From positions 62,001 through 126,000 of the forward strand of contig CAIQVH010000031.1 of NCBI GenBank assembly GCA_903875215.1: a stretch of 64,000 nt of DNA, read 5' to 3'. A program made the translations under genes and the position numbers. A model generated the notes under the pieces. It was not told the DNA's origin and searched no databases. It saw only the letters and a list, made by a program, of their open reading frames with translations. The first letter of the stretch is position 1, and each line of letters begins with the position of its first letter. The DNA comes from an uncultured Anaerolineae bacterium. GTDB taxonomy: Bacteria > Chloroflexota > Anaerolineae > Anaerolineales > Villigracilaceae. Positions 48,348 to 60,997 of this stretch are shown in pieces.

Positions 48348-48415
48348 TTTTCTTTTTCTTTTTCCTGATGATTATTTTACCATCTGAAAAGTAGTCTTAA
48401 ATTGCGCGTAATATG

Positions 48416-48421
48416 TATAAT
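48416..48421 (+). promoter_or_regulatory. -10 box immediately before the histidine kinase start
   Basis: A TATAAT ends 7 bases before the ATG at 48428, so transcription would start on or next to the start codon, giving a leaderless mRNA. A -35 is not clear. Confidence 0.4.
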
Positions 48422-48427
48422 CAAGGT

Positions 48428-49603
48428 ATGCCCAAGAATTCACAGGTTTTGCGTTTGAAGGAAGCCAGCCAGTTGACCGGCGCCCTCTGGGCGGCCTATG
48501 TGTATCGGGAAAATGAATCCTGGCAGGCGGGGGATTTCTATCACCTGGCCAAACCCGAACTGGCAGATTTGCTGCGCCTGTTGAACGACCCGCGCTCGGC
48601 GCCCTGGTTTGGCAAAGTACTGGTAGGCGGGCGTGTGCGCATGCATCCGTTGACTGGAGTGGAGAAATTGCCCGGGGCACGGGTGTATGGATTCCCAGCC
48701 GGGGTGATGACACTTGTTGTGGCGGGTGTGCCCGCGGAGTTGAGCGCACGTGATCAGCGCCTGTGGCGGCTGGCCACGTTGGTCGATCCCCCTCCCGTGC
48801 CTTCGCCGGGCGAGGTGGGATTGCTTCAACAAACCGTGATGGAATTACAACAAACTCAGCAGGAATTGCAGGCGCGCATCAGCGCCCAGCGCGAGGCCGA
48901 GGCGCGCCTGATTCAAGCTGCCAAGCTGGCGGCGGTCGGCGAGATGGCCGCTGGAGTGGCGCACGAGTTGAATAACCCTCTCACATCGGTGGTCGGATTT
49001 ACTGAATTGGCGCTGGAAGAATTGCCGCATGATTCACCCGTGCGGGCCGATCTCGATTTGGTGCTCAAGGAAGCTCGTCGTGCGCGCAGCGTGGTACGCC
49101 GCCTGCTCGATTTTGCCCGCCAGGGTGAGACCAACCGCGTCAAAGCAGATCTTAATGAAATTGTCGAAGATGTTCTCCTGTTGACCAGACACCTGATGAC
49201 CACCAACCATGTCCAGATGACCATCCGGCTCGGCGATAATCTGCCCTGGGTTTTGGTGGATCGCAACCAGATTAAACAGGTGGTCATTAACCTGATCAAT
49301 AACGCGCTGTATGCCATGCCGGAAGGGGGCAGGCTGGAGGTGGAAACCTCCACTGCCATGCGCTACAACCGTTCGTGGGTAACGCTTTCTGTGCGCGATG
49401 AGGGCGTTGGAATTGCCCCGGAGCACCTTCAGCGCATTTTTGAGCCTTTCTTTACCACGCGCGGCGACCGCGGCGGCACAGGGTTGGGCCTTTCTGTGAC
49501 TTATGGAATTGTCACAGACCATGGCGGTATGATCGAAGTTGAGAGTCAGGTCACCATGGGTTCTGCTTTCACCGTCTGGCTGCCTCTGGAGGATGTGTCG
49601 TGA
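48428..49603 (+). CDS. Cytoplasmic sensor histidine kinase
   Basis: 391 residues. An unassigned N-terminal region (1-125) is followed by a coiled coil (130-165), the H-box with His179 in AAGVAHELNNPLTSVVGF and the ATPase domain (about 275-390) with NLINNALYAMPEGG, VRDEGVGIAPEHL and GTGLGLSVTYGIV. No membrane helix is seen, so it senses an internal cue. A start 15 bases earlier is possible, but the TATAAT overlaps it. It forms an operon with the hybrid protein that follows (GTG overlapping its stop) and with the response regulator beyond. Confidence 0.9.
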   Translation: MPKNSQVLRLKEASQLTGALWAAYVYRENESWQAGDFYHLAKPELADLLRLLNDPRSAPWFGKVLVGGRVRMHPLTGVEKLPGARVYGFPAGVMTLVVAGVPAELSARDQRLWRLATLVDPPPVPSPGEVGLLQQTVMELQQTQQELQARISAQREAEARLIQAAKLAAVGEMAAGVAHELNNPLTSVVGFTELALEELPHDSPVRADLDLVLKEARRARSVVRRLLDFARQGETNRVKADLNEIVEDVLLLTRHLMTTNHVQMTIRLGDNLPWVLVDRNQIKQVVINLINNALYAMPEGGRLEVETSTAMRYNRSWVTLSVRDEGVGIAPEHLQRIFEPFFTTRGDRGGTGLGLSVTYGIVTDHGGMIEVESQVTMGSAFTVWLPLEDVS

Positions 49604-51171
49604 CATCTTCGCGTTTGCTGGTGATTGATGACGAGCCCGGTATTACCTTACTGTGCGACCGCCTGTTGAGCAGGGCAGGCTTTACCGTCATCACAGAGAC
49701 CGATCCGGCGGCAGCTTTGGAACTGATTAAAAAGGATCGCTTCGATCTGCTGTTGGTCGATATCCGCATGCCTGAGATCAGCGGGTTTGACGTTATCCAA
49801 AAAGCCCGGGAGATGCAAGGAGAAATCGCCATCCTGGCGATGACCGGCTTTGGCACAGTGGAAACCGCCATCCAGGCCCTGCGGCGCGGAGTGGACGGGC
49901 TGATCCTGAAGCCGTTTGAAAAAGCCGAGCTGATTCAGGCGGTTGAACAGGCGCTGAGTGACAGCCAGCAAAAACAGGATGCTGCGCGTGTCCAGGCATT
50001 ACGCCCGTTGTTTAGCGTTACCGAAACATTGCTCTCAGAAACACGCCCCGACTTTTTGCTCGAATTAATCCTGGAAGTAATTTCGGGTCAGCTACGTTGT
50101 TCCAACGTGGGTTTTTACCAGGTGATTCAAAAAGAGAATATGCTGTCTCTCCTGGCCGGGCGAGGCAAATTACTGACAGATGGGCCGGTCAGCGAAGCGG
50201 GCAACTCGGTGGCGCGGGCGGCTGCGACAGAAGCGCCAGTGTGGGGCGGGATGAACGATGCACGCCTGAAGCGTGATCTGTACCAGTTGGAATTGAGCAG
50301 CCTGATGTGCGTTCCATCCGTGCTGGTAACGACCTCTTCGGTCTTGTATGTGGCCCGCAATTCAGGGGAGCCTGTTTTCCGCGAAGCCGACCTCGAAATG
50401 TTCCTGATTTTGGCGCGACAGGCGACAATCGCCATGGAAAACGCCCGGCTGTATGAAGAACTACGCGCTTACGTGCGCCGCGTGGAAGAATCACAACAGG
50501 CTCTGGTGCAGGCTGAAAAACTGGCTGCGGCAGGCCGCCTGACCGCCTCCATTGCGCATGAGATCAATAACCCGCTCCAGTCTATGCAAAATTGTTTTCA
50601 CCTGGCAACCCGCGACGATATCCCCGCCGAAATGCGTCAGAACTACCTGAATATGACCCGCCAGGAGCTGGAGCGTCTGACGACCACCGTGCAGCGCATG
50701 CTCGATTTTTATCGCCCGAGCGCCGAGTTTAAAGCGGTGCAAGTGCTGGATTTGCTTGAGCATGTTCTCAACCTGCTTGGGCAGCAGCTGCGGGAGCGCA
50801 ACATCCGTGTCACCACGGCCTGGCCAGCCCACCTGGCCAGTATCCGTGCCATCAGTAACCAGATCGAGCAGGTTTTCATCAACCTGGTGTTAAATGCCTT
50901 TGACGCCATGCCCCAGGGCGGTGAATTGTGGATCAGTATCACCCAGAAGCGTAAAATGATTGAGATTACCTTCCAGGATACCGGGCCGGGTGTTCAGCCG
51001 GAGATCCAGGCGAATATCTTTGAGCCATTTATCAGCTCCAAGCAGAACGGAACCGGGCTGGGCCTCTCGGTCAGCTACGATATTGTCACAGCTCACGGCG
51101 GGAAGCTGGATTTGCTAACCGACCACCAGCCGGGGGCATGTTTCAGAGTGTTGTTGCCTATCAACCAATAA
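49600..51171 (+). CDS. Hybrid protein: receiver-GAF-histidine kinase
   Basis: 523 residues. The receiver domain (1-120) has the phospho-acceptor Asp54 in LLVDIRMP and the Asp pair in VIDDEPG, plus Thr/Lys in AMTGFG and LKPFEK. A GAF-like domain follows (about 145-300), then the H-box with His320 in TASIAHEINNPLQSM and an ATPase domain to the end (NLVLNAFDAMPQGG, GTGLGLSVSYDIV). The receiver could be phosphorylated by the kinase encoded just upstream, while its own kinase acts on the following regulator, making a relay. The GTG start overlaps the upstream stop and has GGAGG before it. Confidence 0.9.
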   Translation: MTSSRLLVIDDEPGITLLCDRLLSRAGFTVITETDPAAALELIKKDRFDLLLVDIRMPEISGFDVIQKAREMQGEIAILAMTGFGTVETAIQALRRGVDGLILKPFEKAELIQAVEQALSDSQQKQDAARVQALRPLFSVTETLLSETRPDFLLELILEVISGQLRCSNVGFYQVIQKENMLSLLAGRGKLLTDGPVSEAGNSVARAAATEAPVWGGMNDARLKRDLYQLELSSLMCVPSVLVTTSSVLYVARNSGEPVFREADLEMFLILARQATIAMENARLYEELRAYVRRVEESQQALVQAEKLAAAGRLTASIAHEINNPLQSMQNCFHLATRDDIPAEMRQNYLNMTRQELERLTTTVQRMLDFYRPSAEFKAVQVLDLLEHVLNLLGQQLRERNIRVTTAWPAHLASIRAISNQIEQVFINLVLNAFDAMPQGGELWISITQKRKMIEITFQDTGPGVQPEIQANIFEPFISSKQNGTGLGLSVSYDIVTAHGGKLDLLTDHQPGACFRVLLPINQ

Positions 51172-51184
51172 AGGATTCTTTGCC

Positions 51185-51904
51185 ATGAAAAACAATCTCC
51201 TCATAGTGGATGATGAACCCATTGCGCGCCAGTCTCTGAGCGATATACTGCGGCTGGAGGGATATCTCGTCACGGCGGTGGCGAATGGCGAACAGGCGAT
51301 TGAGCAGGTGCGCAATTACTCGGTGGATTTGATTGTGCTGGATTTGAAAATGCCCGGAATGAACGGGCTGGATGTGGTTCAGGTTGTCAACCAGATTTCC
51401 CCGGATACAGAGATCATCTTGTTGACGGCGTATGGGTCGATGGAATCGGCGGTGGAGGCGTTGCGACAGCGCGTCCATGATTATTTGTTAAAACCAGCCT
51501 CGCCCGGCCAGATTCTGGAAAGTGTACGGCGTGGATTGGAGCGGCGTGAGGCGCGGTTAAAGCAAAAGGAAAAACAGGATGCGGACGTGCCCGTCTTTTT
51601 GACCTCGGATGGTACTGAGGTGGATTTGATGCGGCGGATTGTCCAGCGGAACGGGCAAAGTGAGTCGCTGACCCCGGCTGAGGGCCAGCTCTTGAAGGTA
51701 TTTCTGGAAAACCCTGGTCGGGTATATTCTCACCGCGAGTTGGTCTTGTTGGTGCAGGGCTATGATGTTTCACAGCGCGAGGCGCAGGAAATCCTGCGAC
51801 CATTGGTGAGCCGGTTGCGCAACAAGCTGGATTCTTTCCCGACTTTATTGGAGCGGATTGTGAGTGTGCGTGGGACGGGTTATATCTTCGAGTCGGAGGC
51901 TTAA
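51185..51904 (+). CDS. Response regulator with winged-helix output
   Basis: 239 residues. Receiver (1-120): Asp9/10 pair, phospho-acceptor Asp53 in IVLDLKMPGMNG, Thr in LLTAYGS, Lys in LLKPASP. The C-terminal domain (about 145-239) is an OmpR/PhoB-type winged helix: LTPAEGQLLKVFLENPGRVYSHRELVLL, VSRLRNKLDS and VRGTGYIF. It is the natural output of the preceding two kinases, 13 bases downstream of them. The stop overlaps the end of the convergent EamA gene by 4 bases. Confidence 0.92.
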   Translation: MKNNLLIVDDEPIARQSLSDILRLEGYLVTAVANGEQAIEQVRNYSVDLIVLDLKMPGMNGLDVVQVVNQISPDTEIILLTAYGSMESAVEALRQRVHDYLLKPASPGQILESVRRGLERREARLKQKEKQDADVPVFLTSDGTEVDLMRRIVQRNGQSESLTPAEGQLLKVFLENPGRVYSHRELVLLVQGYDVSQREAQEILRPLVSRLRNKLDSFPTLLERIVSVRGTGYIFESEA

Positions 51905-52848
51905 TCTTGCAGGCTCCAGGGTTGCACTTCGGGTGGGTGCAGCCAGGAGAGCCAGCCGCCTTTTGGATGTCTTTTGACGGGGCCATGTTTTTCGAGGGCG
52001 GCCAGGATCAGGCTGATGCCAAGGATTCCGGCGCCCAATAATTGCAGGGGGCCAAGACTCTCTTCAAGCAGGAAACGGCTGAGCAGGAGGGTGATGAATA
52101 ATTCGCTGAGTCCGAGCAGGGCGGCTTGCAGGCCGCCGATGTGTTTTATTCCGAGAAACAGCATCAGGCGTGAGATGAACGTGACCAGGGTCAGCAGAAT
52201 GACCGGCAGCCAGGTGGCGCCTGGGGCCGGGGGCGTCCGGTCAAAGATGAAGTAGAAGGGCACGGTCACCAGGCTCATGGCAAGCAGGGTGTAGAGTGTC
52301 ACGGTCGGGGCTGGGATTTCGTACAAGACGCGCTGGTTGATGGGGATGTGTAAGGCGTATAAGATGGCGGCCCCGAGCATCATCAACACGGCTGGGAGTG
52401 GTGCGCTGGCGCCGTCGGCGCGGGTGAGCAGGAAAACGGCGGCGGCGGCAATACCGACCCGCAGCAGGGTCAGGCGCGAGATGGCCTGCCGGTCGAGCAG
52501 GGAAAATACGGCCACGAAGAGCGGATAGAGTGAGTAGAGCAGTTGTCCCAGGCTGGCGGGGAGTGAGCCAAGCGCCTGGTAGTAGAGCAATGATCCGAGG
52601 CCGTTGATGGCGCCGGCCAACAGGCAGCCGAGCAGGCCGGCGGGGAAGATGTAGAGGTGCTGGGGTTTGAAGGCGATCAGGTAGAGAAATACCAACAGCG
52701 CGGCCAGGCCGGTGCGTGTGGCAACGACTGCGAGCGGGGAGAATCCACCCAGAATGGCCCAGCGTCCGAAGACCGGGGCCATTCCCAGGAGGATGGCTGA
52801 AGACAGGGCGGCGAGAACTCCGGTGCGCTGTCGTGGGTTGGGAGGCAT
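51901..52848 (-). CDS. EamA (DMT-family) transporter
   Basis: 315 residues, ten predicted helices in two EamA repeats (about 12-140 and 155-290), the layout of RhtA-like exporters of threonine and homoserine and of other metabolite carriers. Substrate motifs are not diagnostic. It is the last gene of the minus-strand unit that contains the threonine-synthase-like/receiver fusion, 46 bases after it (AAAGG ribosome site 6 bases before the ATG), so export of an amino acid made by that enzyme is a reasonable hypothesis. It overlaps the response regulator gene tail to tail. Confidence 0.85.
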   Translation of the reverse strand: MPPNPRQRTGVLAALSSAILLGMAPVFGRWAILGGFSPLAVVATRTGLAALLVFLYLIAFKPQHLYIFPAGLLGCLLAGAINGLGSLLYYQALGSLPASLGQLLYSLYPLFVAVFSLLDRQAISRLTLLRVGIAAAAVFLLTRADGASAPLPAVLMMLGAAILYALHIPINQRVLYEIPAPTVTLYTLLAMSLVTVPFYFIFDRTPPAPGATWLPVILLTLVTFISRLMLFLGIKHIGGLQAALLGLSELFITLLLSRFLLEESLGPLQLLGAGILGISLILAALEKHGPVKRHPKGGWLSWLHPPEVQPWSLQD

Positions 52849-52894
52849 GGCATGCCTTTCTGGGCGTGGCTTGTGCTCGGTGCAGGGGCTGGCG

Positions 52895-54580
52895 TCAGCG
52901 CAGCAGGGCGCGGACTTCCGCCAGAAATTCTTCGCTCATAAAATCGCCTTTTTGCAGCAGGGCCTGGATCTGGCCTTGCAGGCGGCTTTTTTCTTCGAGG
53001 GTGAGTTCTTTGGCGGTGGAGACGATGACGGGGATGTCGGCGGTGGAGGGGTTGGATTTGAGGGCTTCTAGGACGGTGAATCCGTCCATTTCGGGCATCA
53101 TCAGGTCGAGGATGAGCAGGTCGGGGTGTTCGCGGTTGACCAGTTCCAGCCCGGCTCGCCCGGTGCCGGCTTCGTAGATGGTGAAATCCCCTTGCGATTG
53201 CAGGATGCGGCGCACGAGGCGGCGTGCGTCGGGGGTGTCGTCGATGATGGCGATGCGCGGGAAGCGGTCGGGGGCCACGCGGTTGAGGGCGGCCAGCAGG
53301 CCTTCCTGTTCGGTGGCGCTGTGCGGGTTGGCGGGTTGGGTTTGGGGTAGTTCTACGTCGCGGGTCCAGCCGCTGCCGAGGATGAGTGGTTCGGCTGGCA
53401 GGGTGTGCCCGGTGCAGTTGATGACGATCAGGTCGGAGGGTTTGAGGCTGCCGGCGCGGAGCAATTTAATCAGCCCGGCAAAAGCCGCTGCGGCGGCTGG
53501 TTCCGCTGAAATTCCCTCCATCTTGGCGAGCAGGTGCATGGCGCGATAGGCTTCTTCGTCGGTGACGCTTTCAAACTGGCCGCCGTGTTGTTTCATTTCC
53601 TGGCGCAACAGGCCGTAGGAGCGCCCGGGGGTGCCGGTGGCGAGGGTTTCGATATGGGTTTGGGGGTTGGTGACGGGGATGGCTTCGGCCAGGTTGTTTT
53701 GCCAGGCGTGTACCATGGGGGCGCAGCCGGCGGCCTGGATGGCGATCATCCCAGGCTGTTGGTTGGTGAAGCCCATGGCTTGCATTTCGTGAAAGCCTTT
53801 GCCCACCCCCACGGGGCCGAGGCCGCCGCTGACGGCCTGGATGTACCAATCGGGGGTGCGCCAGCGCGGCTGGCCGGGCTGGTGGCCGGGCGGCGGGCCG
53901 AGATGCTCGGTGAGCTGTTCGGCGATTTCGAAGGCGATGGTTTTCATACCTTCCACCGAGGTGATGGTGCGCGTGCCCATATCGTGGTACAGGCCGCGTT
54001 TTTGGGCAAATTCTGCTGCGATTTGCTTGACCTGGTCGTACGAGCCGGTCACTTTGACGACCTGGCTGCCGTACAGGGCGATTTCGCGCATTTTGACTTC
54101 GGGGACGAGGCTGGTGACGAAAGCCCAGAGTTTGATCCCGGCCCGGGCGGCGTAGGCTGAATAGGAGATGGCGACGTTGCCGGTGGAGGCGGCGACGAGT
54201 TCGGTGATGCCGGCTTCTTTGAGCGCGGCGATGGTCAGGGCGGCCTGGCGGTCTTTGAAGGAGGCGGTTGGCCCCTGGCGTTCGTCTTTGATGTATAGAT
54301 TGGGGCAGCCGAGCATTTGCCCGAGGTTGGCGGCACGGATCAGGGGCGTGCCGCCTTCGCCCAGGTATAGGTCGGGGTTGGGTTGGCGAATCGGGAGGAC
54401 TTCGCGATAGCGCCACAGGTCAAATTTGCGGGCTGGCAGGGCGGCTTCGAGCTGGCGGGCGGCTGAGGGGTAATCGTAAACAGCCTGACGCCACTGGCTT
54501 TTGCAGTTCGGGCAGTGGATGGTCAGCGGGTTGTAAGGTTCGGTCTGGCCGCAATCCAGGCATTGAATGGCGAAGGACAT
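52895..54580 (-). CDS. thrC: Threonine-synthase-like PLP enzyme fused to a response-regulator receiver domain
   Basis: 561 residues from the ATG at 54580 (GGAG 6 bases upstream; an upstream extension is antisense to a kinase end). Residues 7-26 are a zinc-ribbon-like C-x2-C-x12-C-x2-C. The PLP domain follows with Lys109 in GPTASFKDRQA, STGNVAISYSAYAARAG and SGGLGPVGVG. Together these match the threonine synthase family, which converts phosphohomoserine to threonine; a paralogue with another substrate is possible. From about 442 to the end is a receiver domain with Asp447/448, phospho-acceptor Asp492, Ser/Thr521-522 and Lys544, all intact. Fusion of this enzyme to a receiver is unusual. A histidine kinase gene lies 28 bases upstream. 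Confidence 0.9.
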   Translation of the reverse strand: MSFAIQCLDCGQTEPYNPLTIHCPNCKSQWRQAVYDYPSAARQLEAALPARKFDLWRYREVLPIRQPNPDLYLGEGGTPLIRAANLGQMLGCPNLYIKDERQGPTASFKDRQAALTIAALKEAGITELVAASTGNVAISYSAYAARAGIKLWAFVTSLVPEVKMREIALYGSQVVKVTGSYDQVKQIAAEFAQKRGLYHDMGTRTITSVEGMKTIAFEIAEQLTEHLGPPPGHQPGQPRWRTPDWYIQAVSGGLGPVGVGKGFHEMQAMGFTNQQPGMIAIQAAGCAPMVHAWQNNLAEAIPVTNPQTHIETLATGTPGRSYGLLRQEMKQHGGQFESVTDEEAYRAMHLLAKMEGISAEPAAAAAFAGLIKLLRAGSLKPSDLIVINCTGHTLPAEPLILGSGWTRDVELPQTQPANPHSATEQEGLLAALNRVAPDRFPRIAIIDDTPDARRLVRRILQSQGDFTIYEAGTGRAGLELVNREHPDLLILDLMMPEMDGFTVLEALKSNPSTADIPVIVSTAKELTLEEKSRLQGQIQALLQKGDFMSEEFLAEVRALLR

Positions 54581-54608
54581 TCCAGGCTCCGGTTTCTTTG
54601 GGTGAGCG

Positions 54609-57314
54609 TTATGGGGTGTTTTTCGCACCGTCGGCGGGCTGGGGGTGGAAAAGCGGCAGGGTGAAGAAAAAGGTGCTGCCTTTGCCAGGTTGACTGTGGA
54701 CGCCAATTTGACCGCCCTGCATCTCGACCAGCCGTTTGCAGATGGAAAGCCCCAGGCCAGTGCCATCGGTTTTACGCGTTGGAGATGAATCAACCTGCGA
54801 GAAGGCCTGGAAAAGTTTTTTCTGGTCGGAGGGGGAGATGCCTGGCCCGGTATCGTGGACGCTGATCAGTGCCTCGGCTGCGCCGCTGACTGGATTGGTC
54901 TGCAGCCTGGCGCTGACGGTGATGGCGCCGCTTTCGGTGAACTTGGCAGCATTCGAGAGCAGGTTGAGCATTACCTGGCGGAAGCGGAGTGGGTCAGCAA
55001 GCACGGTTGCCAGGTCGGGGTCCATTTTTTGCAGGATCTGGATGGGCTTGTCTTTGACCAGCCCCGCCGAAGTGGTGATGACGTGGTTAATTGCCTCGGT
55101 CAGGTTCAGCTCCTCGGGGGCCAGCTCCATTTTTCCTGCATCAATCTTGGATAGGTCGAGGATATTGTTAATCAGCCCGAGCAGGTGGTGTCCGGAGTTG
55201 TAGATGGCCAGCAGGTCTTGCTGTTGCTCTGTGGTGATTGGGCCATCGATGCCTTTCAAGATGACGCGCGAGAAGCCGATGATCGAATTTAACGGGGTGC
55301 GCAGTTCGTGGGACATGTTCGCCAGGAACTGGGTTTTGAGGGTGTCGATCTCGCGCATTTCATCAACGGCCATTTGGGCCAGGGCATAGGAGCGGGCGTT
55401 GTCAATGGCGATTGAAATCTGATCGGCGAGCGTTTCGAGTACGGCGATTTCCTCCGGGTGGAATGTGTCGGTTTTTTCTGAATGAATATCCAACGCACCA
55501 ATGATGCGCGATCCGATTTTGAGCGGGATACCTGCCTCAGAGCGGGTTTCAGGCAAAAGCGGGTTGCGTTGGAAGAGCGGGTCAACCGCCGCATCGTTGA
55601 TGATGATGGTTGTGCCGCTGGCGGTGGCGGTTCCCATGGCCGTGCTTGAGCCGACCGCCACCGAAAACAGGTTCTGTTTCAAACTATGGCCGCCAGGGCC
55701 TGTACCGGCGCGCAGTACAGCGTTGAGGCTATTTTCATCCACAGTGTACAGGCCGACATGCAGATAACCGAAGCGGGATCGGATCAGGTCTACGGCGCGG
55801 TTGAAGAGCGGTTCCAGTTCCAGCGTGGAGGTGATCAGGCGGCTGACTTCCGTCGCTGTAGCCAGATATTCATTTTGCCGGCGCAGACGCTCATTCAGCC
55901 CGGCCAGCTCGGCGGCGCGTTTTTGGGTTTCTTCAAGCAGCCGGGTGCGTTCCACTGCCAACCCAAGCTGGGCGATCAACGTTTCTGCCAGGCGCAGTTC
56001 GTCAGCGCTTAATTGGCGGCCGGGTTGCAGGAGGTACAGGCTCACCAGCCCGCCGACTTTTTCCTGCAGGATCAGTGGCAGGAAGGTTATCGCCTGAATT
56101 TTCCGGCCTGGAAGCAGGTGCCGCTCCAGATCCTGGTTTTTTTGCCGGGGAAGATCGGGGATACTGAGTGGGGCGCGCGTTTCGTAGACTTTACGGACGA
56201 TGGCATCTTCCGTGGATATCAGCAGTTCGGGCGGGCGGCGGGTTTCCTTCTCGCTGGCCAAAGACTGCGCCGAAACCAGCAGACCGAGATCCGGCTGTTC
56301 GATGGCAATCCGCACATCAGCCAGGTTGAGCACCGTGGTAATTTGATGGGTGAATTGCTGAAAGGTGGTCTGCAGGTCAGTGGTGGCCGCAGCCTGCGTG
56401 ACGAAGTTATTGATAACGCTCATTTCCTGGGCGGTTTTCTGGATTTCCTGCACCAGGATGGCATTTTTCATAGCTGACGCAATCTGCGCAGCCAGGGTGG
56501 TCATGACGGAGGTCGATTCTTCGCCGAATGCGTCCTGCCGTTCGGAATGTAGAGTCAACACGCCGAGGAGTTGTTCCCCCACTGCAATCGGGATTGCCAT
56601 TTCGGATTGCAGATTCGGCAGGCTGGGGTCGGGCTGCCAGTCGGGCTGCGTCTGCACCGCCTGGAGGCTGACAGCCTGCCGGGTGCGCGCCGCCCGTGCC
56701 AGGCAGGAATTTTGCGCTTTGAAGTCCAGATCCCGCGGGCCGTGGGCGCCGGGTAGATGTTCCATCTCGTTGGCCCAACTGCAGGCTTTCAATTTCAGCT
56801 GGCGCCCATCTGCGCTCAGGGTGTGGATGTGCACATGGTACAGGTTGAATCGCTGGCGGGTCAGGTTGACGGCGGTTTCCAGCAGGGGTTGAAGCTCCAA
56901 AATGGTGGAAATGCGCGAGGCAATCTCAGCCACGGCGGCCATCTGGTTGGCCAATTTTTGGGTGGTTTGAAATAAATGGGCATTTTGCAGGGCCAGCCCC
57001 AGCTGGTCTGCGACCTGGCGGGCGAGAGTTTGCTCCTCGGCCTGCCATTGATGCCCGAAGCTGGATTCCAGCTGGAGGAGTGTCTGGTTGCCGGGGGCCT
57101 GGATCGGGATTGCGAGCCTGGCGCGCAGCCCGGATTCCAACTGGAAAGGCTGTTCAAGGACGGGTTCGGGGCGGCTTTTCAGACCCGTATCGGCTGATTT
57201 TCTGGGAGTGGTCTTCAGTTGGGAGGTTGCAGGGCGCAGGTCTTCGCGCTCGGTTTGCGGGAGGCCGGTAAATAATTTATCAAGGCGATTGCGTATCTTT
57301 TTGTTGCTGGACAT
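54609..57314 (-). CDS. GAF-array histidine kinase
   Basis: 901 residues, cytoplasmic, no membrane helix. Starts with a partial GAF-like region (about 50-115), then three GAF domains (roughly 135-300, 305-475, 495-650) separated by short helices. Next are the H-box with His669 in FLANMSHELRTPLNSIIGF, a dimerisation helix, and an ATPase domain with NLLSNAAKFTES, VHDTGPGIS and GTGLGLSICKRL. Many internal signals could be integrated. It has no receiver of its own; the nearest one is fused to the threonine-synthase-like enzyme directly downstream. Its start overlaps the end of the ParA gene by 35 bases. Confidence 0.9.
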   Translation of the reverse strand: MSSNKKIRNRLDKLFTGLPQTEREDLRPATSQLKTTPRKSADTGLKSRPEPVLEQPFQLESGLRARLAIPIQAPGNQTLLQLESSFGHQWQAEEQTLARQVADQLGLALQNAHLFQTTQKLANQMAAVAEIASRISTILELQPLLETAVNLTRQRFNLYHVHIHTLSADGRQLKLKACSWANEMEHLPGAHGPRDLDFKAQNSCLARAARTRQAVSLQAVQTQPDWQPDPSLPNLQSEMAIPIAVGEQLLGVLTLHSERQDAFGEESTSVMTTLAAQIASAMKNAILVQEIQKTAQEMSVINNFVTQAAATTDLQTTFQQFTHQITTVLNLADVRIAIEQPDLGLLVSAQSLASEKETRRPPELLISTEDAIVRKVYETRAPLSIPDLPRQKNQDLERHLLPGRKIQAITFLPLILQEKVGGLVSLYLLQPGRQLSADELRLAETLIAQLGLAVERTRLLEETQKRAAELAGLNERLRRQNEYLATATEVSRLITSTLELEPLFNRAVDLIRSRFGYLHVGLYTVDENSLNAVLRAGTGPGGHSLKQNLFSVAVGSSTAMGTATASGTTIIINDAAVDPLFQRNPLLPETRSEAGIPLKIGSRIIGALDIHSEKTDTFHPEEIAVLETLADQISIAIDNARSYALAQMAVDEMREIDTLKTQFLANMSHELRTPLNSIIGFSRVILKGIDGPITTEQQQDLLAIYNSGHHLLGLINNILDLSKIDAGKMELAPEELNLTEAINHVITTSAGLVKDKPIQILQKMDPDLATVLADPLRFRQVMLNLLSNAAKFTESGAITVSARLQTNPVSGAAEALISVHDTGPGISPSDQKKLFQAFSQVDSSPTRKTDGTGLGLSICKRLVEMQGGQIGVHSQPGKGSTFFFTLPLFHPQPADGAKNTP

Positions 57315-58068
57315 AATCGATCAGCTCCTGGGCCAGAACCTGATACTGATAAGAGCCCCGGCTGTTGGGGCGGTACTGGTTGATGGGAATACCAATAATC
57401 GGGCTTTCGCGCAGACGGGTGTCCACTTCGATCACGGTGGAGAAGAGGCCGTTTCCAAATGTTTGGGTTAACTGCTCGCGGATCACTTTATGGGTGCGGT
57501 TGCGCTGGTCGAGCAGGGTGATCAGAATGCGGTAAGCGAGGCGTGGGTTGGTGTCGCGCCGGATGCGGCGGATCAGGGTCATCATGTCGCGCAAGGCATA
57601 AGCGGAGAAATATTCCGCCTGGGTTGGAATGACCAGTAATGCGGCAGCCGTCAGGGCGTTGAAGGTGATGGCGCCCATCGAAGGTGGGCAATCCAACAGG
57701 ACAAAGTCGTAGGGTAGGGTATCAAGCTGCAGGGCGTTCAGCAGGGTATAGGCGTAATGGTTGCGCACCGGCAGCTTTTGTTCGGCATCCAGCAGGGTCG
57801 GGCTGGATGGGACAATATCCATGCTGGGAGTGCTGGTTTTTTGAATGGCTTCCAGCAGTTGCGCGCCGTTCAGCAGAACATGACTGCCGTTTTTATCGGC
57901 TTTTCCGGGCTCGAGGCCGTTTGCCAGGGTCAGGTTACCCTGGGGGTCCAGGTCCAGAAGCAGGACTTTTTTGCCCATTTCGGCCAGGGACGCGCCAAGC
58001 GAGAAGGTCGTGGTGGTTTTTGCCACGCCTCCTTTTTCGTTGGAAATTGCGATGACATAAGCGGTCAT
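57280..58068 (-). CDS. ParA/MinD-family ATPase
   Basis: 262 residues from the ATG at 58068 (AGAGG 5 bases before). The Walker A variant SNEKGGVAKTTTTFSLG (about 9-25) is of the ParA type, with the signature Lys. LLLDLDPQGNLTLANGL and VLLDCPPSMGAITFNALTAA are Walker A' and B, and TQAEYFSAYALRDMM matches plasmid and chromosome ParA. No parB gene or centromere-like repeat is near, so an orphan ParA is more likely, perhaps positioning the sensor proteins of this operon as ParC/PpfA position chemoreceptor clusters. It lies 7 bases after a GAF sensor gene and overlaps the kinase gene. Confidence 0.88.
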   Translation of the reverse strand: MTAYVIAISNEKGGVAKTTTTFSLGASLAEMGKKVLLLDLDPQGNLTLANGLEPGKADKNGSHVLLNGAQLLEAIQKTSTPSMDIVPSSPTLLDAEQKLPVRNHYAYTLLNALQLDTLPYDFVLLDCPPSMGAITFNALTAAALLVIPTQAEYFSAYALRDMMTLIRRIRRDTNPRLAYRILITLLDQRNRTHKVIREQLTQTFGNGLFSTVIEVDTRLRESPIIGIPINQYRPNSRGSYQYQVLAQELIDYVQQQKDTQSP

Positions 58069-58075
58069 AAGTCCT

Positions 58076-60997
58076 CTACTCTTGATCTTTGCCTGGAGTG
58101 GTGTTGGATGGAATAATGCTGGCATCCTTGAGATTGAGCGCCTGTTTTAATTCAGTAAGCGCGATTTGGATCATCTCTTCCGGGTTGTTTGTGCTTCGAA
58201 TCTTCGAGGTGATCTCGGAGACTTTGCGTTCACGTTCGGCGCGTTCGGCGGTTTGCTCAAAGAGCAGCGCGTTTTCGGCAGAAATGGCGGCGCGTTCTGC
58301 AATGGCCTGTGCCAGGCTGATTTCGGCCTCGTCCCACACTCTGCCGCTTTGCTGGCGCAGGCTGAGCACACCCAGAGTCTGTCCATGGATTTTAACCGGA
58401 ATGACCAGCGAAGTCGACTCATTGCCGTCGGTTTTTAGGATTGTGTGACCGGTTTGCAGGGCCTCATCATGCTCAGGCAGAGATACGGGCTGCAGCAGCG
58501 GCTCTGTTCCAGTGGAAGTTGAGCGGAACCCGGAGATGTGCCGACTTTCGGTGGCGTTTTGCCATTGTGTGCCGAGATATCGCCGGTAGAGTGATTCGAC
58601 TTCGGCCAGTGATTTGCGTGTTTCTTCAAACAGGCGGGAGTTTTCAATGGCGATTGAAACCTGGTTGGCCAGAGTGGAAAGCGCCTGGATATCTTCCTGT
58701 GAAAAGGCATTTTCTTCGGTACTCTGCACATCCAGCACGCCGATGAGCGTGTTGCGAACCCTGAGCGGCAGCGCCATTTCCGAATGGGTATCGGGCAGGT
58801 CGGGGTTGTTGAAGAAGACTTCGTCCCGTTCTGTGGCAAGCGCGATGCGCGCTTCCCCCGTCTCGCTCACAAACCCGACGATGCCGGTTTTGCCGACCTC
58901 CAGGCGGTGCCCGCGGGCCAGCATGCGCTCGCCGCCGGCGCTGTTGGCGGCTTTTAGTACGGCAAAGCGCTGGCTGGAATCCAGCAGGAATATGCCGACA
59001 TGGTAGAACCCGAATTGCTTGCTGATCAGGCGGGTGATATGTGGCAGCAATTCCTCGGGGTCTTGCAGGGCGGCAACCTTGTTGGCAATTTCGGCAATGG
59101 CCTGGGCCTGGGCGGCCCGGCGCTCCAGGCGGCGATAGGCGCTTTCCAGATCCTGCGAGCGTAGTTCCAGTTCGAGGGTTTGCTGTGCCATTTGCTCGGA
59201 ACGGGATTCAAGCTCAAAGGTGCGTTCTGCTACCCGCTCTTCGAGGATTTGCAGGTTGTTCTGTAATTGCCCGGTCATGGAATTGAAGGATCCAGCCAGT
59301 TCGCCGATTTCATCTGGAGTGTCGATGACTGCCCGCGCTGCGAGATTCCCGTCCTGGACGGAGCGGGCTGCGCCGGTCAGTTGGATGACTGGAGCGGTCA
59401 GCACCTGCGCGACGAGGAAGGCGGCGACGACGCTCAGGCTGGCCATCAGGAGCGAGAGCTGCAGCGTCTGGCGGGTTTGCTGGGTAACCGGTTGTTGAAT
59501 GGTGCTGGTGGATTGTTGTGCAATGATAATCCACGGAGCGTTGACCAATCTGACGGCAAAGCTGGTGGCAGATTGCCCATTTTCAGCAGCCGCCTCAAGG
59601 TTGAAGCTAGCTGTGTTTCCAGGCAGAAGCCCGGTCAACAGGCGGGCGATTTCGGGCTGTGGGTGGCTGGTAGGGTCGATTTCGTTGGCGGGCAGGTATC
59701 CGGCTGCGGTCAGCTGGCTGGTTTCAGGCGCGCTGAGAGCTTTGTAGCTGGTAAAAAGATATTCGGGGTGGGTGGTGTGTGCCAGCCTGAGCAGGGATTC
59801 CTGGTCGAGCAGGACGAGATACAGGGCATCCGGGTCGCCTTTGGTGGGGTTGGCCTGGTTGACCAGGCTTTGTAAAATCTCACCGTGAAAGCTGGCGCGC
59901 AAGACGCCGGCAATTTCACCACGCGGGTGGCGGATTGGGGCGCTGAAAGTGAGTTCCGGGCCGCTTTGCCCTTCAGGAAAGTGAAGCTGGGAAATGCGGG
60001 GCTGCCCACTGGCAAATACGGCTTGAAAATCGGGCAGGTCGGGGGCTTGATTTCCGACTTGCTTATAGTCCGTGTCCAGTACGATACGGCCGTTTGGGTC
60101 GAGGATGCTGATGGATTTGAGTGTGCCGGGGCGGCTTTGGGCCAGTTCTTGCAGGCTTTGTCGGGCATTTTGTGCCAGGACTGGGTCGGTGGTTGCATCG
60201 AGGTAGAGGATGTAATCACGGTTTTGGGCGGCTACCTGCAGGACGTCCAACTGGGTGGCGGTGAAGGCGTCGAGGGAAAGCTGTGCCTGCTGGGCGGCTT
60301 TTTGCAGATCGGTGGTCGTATATTGTTCGATGGTTTGGGCGGCGCGGATAGTATTGGCGCTGCCCACGATGGTGAGAGGAATGAGGGTGACGCCCAGAAA
60401 GCTGAGCAGCAGTTTGGTGCGGAGTGGCAGGCTGGAAAAACGACCTGCCAGGAAGAGTATGCCGGCCAGACTGAATAGCGCTGTCAGGGCCAGGCTGGTG
60501 ATGACGAAGGCGGGTTTGAGTTCTTCGGGTGCCGGGTGGCTGGTTTCGATCAGGATGCGGAGGAATTGCAGGATGGTGACGAGGCCTAGTGCCCAGTCGG
60601 TTGTGCGGGCTGGCAGAGCGCTGAGTGCCAGCCCGGCCATCAATATAAGCTGGATGAAGGTAAACAGGATCGAGCGCAGGATGGGGGCCGGGGTGGCGGT
60701 GGCGATGAATAACGAGGTGAGGGTGACGACCAGGAGATAGAGCCAGGTGCCGTGGTAGGGTTTATCAGCCTGGTAGAGTAGAATGGCTGCCGCCGAGGTT
60801 AGAAAATAAAGGATGAGCCCGTAATTGTTGGGATCGAGCGGGGTATTGTTTACGCGGGCGATGGCGGTGGAAAGGGAGAACATGACCGCATAGATCACCA
60901 GGTAGGTCAGGAGCATGCGCAGCCCGTCCCGTTTGTGGCGCTCGTAGTGGGCATCCCTGGGAGAGTTCAGGCCGAGGAAATCGGATGGGAATTTCAT
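58076..60997 (-). CDS. Membrane sensor: 7TM-like N-terminus, Cache, HAMP and two GAF domains
   Basis: 973 residues. Six to seven hydrophobic segments (about 28-225) precede an extracytoplasmic double-Cache-like domain (230-525; DYILYLDATTDPVLAQNARQSLQELAQ, SISILDPNGRIVLDTD). A last membrane segment (535-558), HAMP (560-612), coiled coil with a repeated LELRSQ pattern, and GAF domains at about 660-810 and 830-930 follow. There is no kinase, methyl-accepting or other output domain, so it must signal to a partner. The final segment repeats the start of another GAF-like helix. Its stop precedes the ParA start by 7 bases, and its start overlaps the preceding gene. Confidence 0.85.
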   Translation of the reverse strand: MKFPSDFLGLNSPRDAHYERHKRDGLRMLLTYLVIYAVMFSLSTAIARVNNTPLDPNNYGLILYFLTSAAAILLYQADKPYHGTWLYLLVVTLTSLFIATATPAPILRSILFTFIQLILMAGLALSALPARTTDWALGLVTILQFLRILIETSHPAPEELKPAFVITSLALTALFSLAGILFLAGRFSSLPLRTKLLLSFLGVTLIPLTIVGSANTIRAAQTIEQYTTTDLQKAAQQAQLSLDAFTATQLDVLQVAAQNRDYILYLDATTDPVLAQNARQSLQELAQSRPGTLKSISILDPNGRIVLDTDYKQVGNQAPDLPDFQAVFASGQPRISQLHFPEGQSGPELTFSAPIRHPRGEIAGVLRASFHGEILQSLVNQANPTKGDPDALYLVLLDQESLLRLAHTTHPEYLFTSYKALSAPETSQLTAAGYLPANEIDPTSHPQPEIARLLTGLLPGNTASFNLEAAAENGQSATSFAVRLVNAPWIIIAQQSTSTIQQPVTQQTRQTLQLSLLMASLSVVAAFLVAQVLTAPVIQLTGAARSVQDGNLAARAVIDTPDEIGELAGSFNSMTGQLQNNLQILEERVAERTFELESRSEQMAQQTLELELRSQDLESAYRRLERRAAQAQAIAEIANKVAALQDPEELLPHITRLISKQFGFYHVGIFLLDSSQRFAVLKAANSAGGERMLARGHRLEVGKTGIVGFVSETGEARIALATERDEVFFNNPDLPDTHSEMALPLRVRNTLIGVLDVQSTEENAFSQEDIQALSTLANQVSIAIENSRLFEETRKSLAEVESLYRRYLGTQWQNATESRHISGFRSTSTGTEPLLQPVSLPEHDEALQTGHTILKTDGNESTSLVIPVKIHGQTLGVLSLRQQSGRVWDEAEISLAQAIAERAAISAENALLFEQTAERAERERKVSEITSKIRSTNNPEEMIQIALTELKQALNLKDASIIPSNTTPGKDQE

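Follow-up and report, generated by a model that had tools for sequence, protein, structure and literature searches.

A PLP enzyme fused to a receiver domain and linked to a histidine kinase gene in Anaerolineae

The fusion gene and its surroundings

The stretch of DNA analysed here (the window; 64,000 nucleotides from an uncultured Anaerolineae bacterium) carries on its minus strand a run of genes in the order Cache-HAMP-GAF sensor, ParA-like ATPase, histidine kinase, fusion gene and EamA-family transporter, neighbouring genes overlapping or being separated by no more than 50 nt (Table 1). An earlier note on this DNA had described the fusion gene, at 52895-54580, as a single uninterrupted frame that joins a threonine-synthase-like PLP enzyme to a complete response-regulator receiver domain. 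These coordinates are right, and the strand, which had been left unstated, is the minus strand: 561 codons and a stop are read from 54580 down to 52895, with no break at 53240-53290, where a frameshift had been considered. The domain composition was likewise borne out, as Pfam recognises both PALP and Response_reg, each so far above its cut-off that a chance match is excluded, and the residues of the phospho-site are kept. The residue numbers given for K109 (in the motif SFKDR), D447/D448, D492, T522 and K544 are correct as well. No third Pfam family was found in the fused protein at E<=0.001. Upstream of the enzyme domain lie two CxxC pairs, on the strength of which the four-cysteine N terminus is a putative zinc ribbon.

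The kinase of the window carries an H-box pattern at residue 669 and is devoid of a receiver domain. In this it differs from the kinases of two congeners, which both end in two C-terminal receivers (L009, 727-1488; L010, 727-1482), and the 28 nt between kinase and fusion leave no place for such domains. Since the window kinase is without the C-terminal receivers of its congeners, the fused receiver is the sole receiver found by Pfam among the co-directional window genes (51901-60997), which encode one kinase.

Table 1. Features of the fusion gene and its co-directional neighbours, in window coordinates
Feature	Position	Strand	Remark
PALP-receiver fusion gene, 561 aa	52895..54580	minus	single frame, ATG start, stop at 52895-52897
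Four-cysteine zinc-ribbon-like N-terminal element, C7/C10/C23/C26	54503..54562	minus	all four in 82/82 fused proteins
PLP fold-type-II enzyme domain, PF00291, residues 73-391	53408..54364	minus	Pfam E 2.9e-68
Lys109 in SFKDR, predicted PLP Schiff-base lysine	54254..54256	minus	82/82
Linker, residues 397-440	53261..53392	minus	0/44 columns invariant
Receiver domain PF00072, residues 443-544, fold reaching C terminus	52949..53254	minus	Pfam E 3.5e-19
Acidic pair D447/D448	53237..53242	minus	447 = D (50) / E (32); 448 = D in 82/82
D492, predicted phospho-acceptor	53105..53107	minus	82/82
T522	53015..53017	minus	T in 58/82, S in 24/82
K544	52949..52951	minus	82/82
GAF x3 - HisKA - HATPase_c histidine kinase	54609..57314	minus	28 nt upstream of fusion; Pfam
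ParA-like ATPase	57280..58125	minus	35 nt overlap with kinase start; Pfam
Cache-HAMP-GAF sensor	58076..60997	minus	no kinase domain in Pfam; similar genes upstream in many loci
EamA-family (drug/metabolite) transporter	51901..52848	minus	46 nt downstream of fusion; Pfam

Distribution, conservation and origin of the fusion

Genome samples that each included the genome of the window were searched with the whole 561-aa protein. Matches were obtained in 156 of 301 genomes of the order (E<=1e-70), in 122 of 346 genomes of the class (E<=1e-75) and in 37 of 350 genomes of the phylum, the window's included (E<=1e-75). The matches of the phylum sample from outside the class belong to two families, f92 with six genomes and f81 with one, and the fusion is thus found in Anaerolineae and in some other Chloroflexota. 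In the full list for the phylum, all 48 matches are free of internal stops and reach at least query residue 554, and they disposed of the possibilities, raised in the earlier note, of a sequencing frameshift or of homologues that are always split. With the same frame present in 37 of the 350 genomes across the phylum and continuous in 48 of 48 matches, the joining of two genes by an error of sequencing or assembly is vanishingly improbable, and we found no point in its favour.

A second search, at E<=1e-40, covered 16 genomes of the order in which the match had been weak or lacking. Divergent fused copies of 49-50% identity turned up in four of them. A fifth, G241, has a single 669-aa frame spanning both parts, and in three more, G130, G144 and G267, the pieces lie on two contigs or begin at a contig end; seven genomes contain unfused paralogues alone (31-35%), and G008 gave no match at this threshold. 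Among the class-sample matches listed, one copy (in G544) has two internal stops. At another locus (L133 1495-3072, in G017), residues 1-231 of the PLP enzyme continue in frame into an EamA transporter, a join that is due either to an internal operon deletion or to misassembly.

Conservation was assessed on an alignment of 82 fused proteins, made up of the window, 21 loci and 60 regions. The 21 loci were taken from 80, the other 59 of which align with the receiver alone, beginning at about residue 393; the 60 regions were hand-picked from the order, class and phylum matches listed so as to span families and copy types, and some of the loci represent the same genome via two collections, two PALP rows being identical. 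We divided the 81 relatives by hand, based on tree and context, into groups A (36 loci), B (11), C (10) and D (24), of which D is not a clade. The residues C7, C10, C23, C26, K109, D448, D492 and K544 are invariant in all 82 proteins. Overall, the PALP domain has 65 invariant columns of 396 and the receiver 8 of 121, three of which are D448, D492 and K544; none of the 44 linker columns is invariant. The acidic pair, phospho-acceptor aspartate, threonine or serine and lysine that characterise response regulators are thus present in every fused protein, and the PF00291 domain in the same polypeptide always carries the predicted catalytic lysine. Mean receiver identity to the window is 69% in group A and 39-50% in groups B-D, with the phospho-site retained throughout. 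Receiver dN/dS was computable for six of 12 pairs, giving values of 0.007, 0.027, 0.031, 0.044, 0.075 and 0.274 that are rough since dS is high (0.6-2.0) in these pairs; the remaining six were saturated at synonymous sites.

The closest homologues found outside Chloroflexota come from the cyanobacterial phylum of an Oscillatoria locus, where four of 386 genomes encode a protein whose enzyme domain shares 47-50% identity with the fused one; a smaller sample of the same phylum yielded the same four genomes (4/146). Three of these proteins are unfused; in the fourth, L199, the contig runs out shortly after the enzyme domain. In the contig-end frame of L199 (1-2487, minus strand), a long N-terminal stretch that by eye resembles the cellulase of the sibling L198 precedes the PLP enzyme, and in L198 the cellulase, an MFS transporter and the enzyme are separate genes. 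No kinases or regulators like those of the window were found among the open frames of at least 90 aa in the four cyanobacterial regions (8-19 kb), and no kinase among ten neighbours of these relatives scanned with Pfam. No hint at a substrate came from the genes beside these relatives (MFS, GH5 cellulase, Mg-chelatase-like, GH3, radical SAM). Elsewhere, six of nine genomes from other phyla have matches, all unfused (30-36%), and a plasmid search returned one match, also unfused (31%); the samples of the phyla of a Planctomycetaceae locus and of an Acidobacteria locus gave none (0/149 genomes each), which shows little as they contain no positive control.

A quick tree built from 107 PALP rows sets all 82 fused proteins on one side of a single branch (support 59), and together with the four cyanobacterial proteins they form a clade with a support of 100. 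A tree of the receivers (104 of 226 domains, 121 columns, many forks unresolved) unites the fused receivers of groups A-D in one clade (support 94), which takes in the second receivers found on group C proteins and stands apart from kinase-tail and stand-alone receivers. The simplest history suggested by these trees would be a single fusion with later duplication of the receiver, although the key branch is weakly supported. The occurrence of unfused relatives (47-50%) in the four cyanobacterial genomes likewise indicates that the receiver was probably added once.

Relation to threonine synthase

The fused protein shares with threonine synthases of the ThrC type (TIGR00260; 1uim, 2zsj, 2d1f, 6cgq) the PLP fold type II and the SFKDR lysine motif, and its best matches among solved structures are threonine synthases (2zsj, 3.6e-43; 1uim, 5.3e-43). 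This favours the view, taken up from the earlier note, that the cell's threonine synthase itself is under two-component control. The genome of the window, however, encodes a separate thrC at locus L004 (TIGR00260, 307 bits; cut-off 167.1) that is directly followed by thrB (257.2 bits; cut-off 168.25), and the fused protein, 36% identical to this thrC, stays below the curated cut-off of TIGR00260 with 153.1 bits. Its best curated match is PRK08197, where it again remains under the cut-off (254.7 against 303), and its score for cysteate synthase (TIGR03844) is far from that family's threshold (119.6 against 324.9). In addition to the missed cut-offs, altered conserved sites and a changed glycine loop, the extra cysteine motif and the receiver set it apart from ThrC. 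None of eight window genes scanned with Pfam belongs to the threonine pathway.

To compare the sites in detail, the 82 fused proteins and the four cyanobacterial rows were aligned to the L004 thrC. As in the Thermus enzyme, the residues of thrC in GNT, NPxRxEG and GNAGN presumably bind the substrate and the cofactor phosphate. All 86 rows differ from thrC at these sites: GNT has V, A or K in place of its T, NPxRxEG has A, S, G, C, T, N or P in place of its R, and SGGxGPxG stands where thrC has the GNAGN loop. An R or K occurs one column past the position of the thrC arginine in 32 of the 86 rows, so that a basic residue may fill the role of this arginine in part of the family; in the window this residue is a V, and the point speaks for threonine synthesis in those other members only. 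The column in question, that of window residue 209, holds mostly I or V in the remainder, and R/K versus I/V at this position could mark two substrate classes within the family. Among the paralogues, the PRK08197-like ones keep the thrC arginine and lack the threonine, and another group is without either.

The wider occurrence of thrC bears on the same question. A match to the thrC of the window's genome (E<=1e-70) is present in 32 of 50 genomes with a fusion, 28 of these matches showing at least 56% identity and four 45-48%, which argues against the fused enzyme being the threonine synthase of these cells. In the other 18 of the 50, no such match was found at this threshold, and this leaves room for a threonine role there. 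Taken together, the separate thrC-thrB pair, the missed curated cut-offs and the replaced thrC sites led us to reject a housekeeping thrC identity for the window's genome. The naming of the protein as a threonine synthase is therefore not supported, and control of the cell's threonine synthase by a two-component system appears very improbable. As judged from its sequence, the fused enzyme is related to threonine synthase and is probably not one itself, and similarity alone should not earn members of this family that name.

PALP enzymes of the PRK08197 type, annotated as 'threonine synthase', and of the cysteate synthase type (TIGR03844) are matched from residues 3-5 on, from which it follows that the cysteine N terminus is common to these types. 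The PRK08197-like paralogues in our tree, which was built without cysteate synthase, have no receiver and form a separate clade. Six loci (L155, L157, L159, L160, L161 and L168) also have a gene for an unfused PLP enzyme close to the fusion (577 bits to PRK08197 in L155), and these neighbourhoods thus contain two different PLP enzymes each.

Gene linkage and possible control of the enzyme

A histidine kinase gene lies directly upstream of the fusion and on the same strand in 65 of the 81 relatives (A 33, B 9, C 5, D 18) as well as in the window, so that the adjoining kinase described in the earlier note holds as a matter of gene linkage. The gap between kinase and fusion has a median of 17 nt, measured by first start codon. 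Two further loci have a kinase within three genes upstream, and in the remaining 14 of the 81 none was found within this distance; L058 is the only one of these 14 whose upstream sequence is as short as about 2 kb, and L136 and L137, which are close relatives, are kinase-less in an unrelated neighbourhood. The H-box pattern was detected in 65 of the 66 adjacent kinases, the window's included (the exception, L052, is a fragment of 453 aa bordering a contig end), and a rough N/G-box pattern in 51 of the 66. An EamA gene is located within three genes downstream in 49 of the 81 loci, all of them in group A (34/36) or group D (15/24), with none within this distance in groups B and C (0/21). In group A, 23 of 36 loci have ParA no more than three genes upstream, against 1/24, 1/11 and 0/10 in groups D, B and C, respectively; in many loci, the ParA-like gene and the start of the kinase gene share about 32-35 nt.

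We consider it reasonably likely that the fused protein is a receiver-gated PLP enzyme, in which phosphorylation of D492 by the kinase would alter the activity of the PLP domain on a substrate that is probably other than O-phosphohomoserine, with export or relief of the product in groups A and D. The two proteins encoded upstream, the Cache/GAF sensor and the GAF histidine kinase, would perceive an input, and kinase signalling would lead to phosphorylation of D492 in the fused receiver. The phosphorylated receiver would then change the activity of the tethered PLP domain, an effect whose existence and direction are both presumed here. The PLP domain, in turn, would carry out a beta- or gamma-elimination or replacement on a small amino acid, probably not O-phosphohomoserine, and in groups A and D the product would probably be passed out of the cell, or relieved, via the adjoining EamA transporter. 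This proposal builds on what is seen directly, namely a conserved fusion in which catalytic and phospho-acceptor residues are intact and which is linked to kinase and transporter genes; an intact receiver with a sensor kinase as its usual neighbour suggests that an outside signal switches enzyme chemistry directly. The 14 loci without a nearby kinase, the kinases lacking a recognisable N/G box and the absence of the transporter beside groups B and C count against it.

Attachment to a metabolic or signalling enzyme is not without precedent. While the earlier note was correct that, as a rule, receivers drive other outputs, those attached to metabolic enzymes already constitute a recognised class of response regulators (PMC5847659). 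The archaeal examples described there (KaiC-like NTPase, BcsA-like glycosyltransferase, thioredoxin reductase and pyruvate phosphate dikinase) are mostly of narrow range, and for bacteria 'multiple instances' are cited from two further references (PMC5847659). No PLP enzyme is among the examples named there (PMC5847659), an earlier bacterial PLP case being possible. The fusion resembles this class in having a receiver tethered to an enzyme; unlike the narrow-range archaeal cases it is spread over many families of a single class and is also present in two other families of the phylum. In a review on the allostery of PLP enzymes, the words 'receiver' and 'response regulator' are absent (PMC9081730). 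The open-licence literature, searched by title and start of abstract, yielded no description of a PALP-receiver fusion, which is not the same as absence from print.

A parallel among PLP enzymes raises the possibility that the receiver serves as a structural or oligomerisation module and is not phosphorylated. In the 'winged' AAT-fold decarboxylases, an N-terminal domain derived from a receiver is thought to have opened new quaternary structures, and, like the fusion, these ornithine/lysine/arginine decarboxylases combine a receiver-derived domain on an amino-acid PLP enzyme with a transporter acquired in tandem (PMC8503589). They belong to another PLP fold with the receiver at the N terminus (PMC8503589), whereas the fused protein consists of a PALP domain and a C-terminal receiver, with the phospho-acceptor kept and a kinase gene linked. 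The retention of the phospho-acceptor set in all 82 proteins while other receiver positions diverge, together with the kinase gene adjoining most relatives, makes a purely structural role unlikely.

A different objection to a receiver-gated enzyme arises from the other receivers in these neighbourhoods. As many as 46 of the 66 adjacent kinases have one or more C-terminal receivers of their own, which could be the true acceptor, and a direct line from kinase to enzyme therefore needs qualifying. In 33 of 36 group A loci the gene just upstream contains two receivers, forming the kinase tail except in L041, where they are a separate gene. A single-receiver gene is next downstream of the fusion in 11/11 loci of group B and 8/10 of group C, and group C proteins bear two fused receivers in nine of ten cases (four checked with Pfam). 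With extra receivers in so many relatives, the fused receiver may compete with others or follow them. The fused protein might then chiefly be a sink or relay branch of a multi-receiver phosphate network, with the PLP part as a ligand sensor. The invariance of the PLP lysine and of 65/396 PALP columns leads us to expect a working catalyst instead, and the extra kinase receivers are missing in the window, so we regard a predominant sink or relay function as rather unlikely.

Should the receiver-gated enzyme be correct, a PLP enzyme of amino acid chemistry would be set directly by sensor-kinase phosphorylation in a large, mostly uncultured bacterial group, where gene expression or allosteric metabolites would otherwise be expected to exert such control. 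The family would also offer a test case for the takeover of an enzyme by a receiver, with the doubled-receiver variants and the unfused relatives as natural controls. More speculatively, and with a fairly low chance of being true, the fused protein could be a dedicated enzyme, switched post-translationally by sensor and kinase, that makes an amino-acid-like signal. Leaving through the EamA transporter, this signal would provide Anaerolineae with a fast chemical output that needs no transcription and may affect cells nearby.

Further variation was noted around the fusion. The doubled receivers belong to a branch (L162-L169 and L182) with tandem receivers on the PLP enzyme, in most of which a stand-alone receiver gene adjoins; within it, L169 has about 1000 extra N-terminal residues before the PLP domain, with no Pfam match. 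The gene next downstream in group D is a kinase gene in 18 of 24 loci and contains a receiver by profile in 17 of 24, two that were checked with Pfam being receiver-HisKA-HATPase proteins; in L172 the next downstream gene encodes a PAS-GAF-STAS protein. In the window, an opposite two-component set on the plus strand (48413-51904), composed of a histidine kinase, a receiver-GAF-kinase hybrid and an OmpR-type regulator, faces the transporter, and the regulator and the hybrid recur at the same place in many group A relatives.
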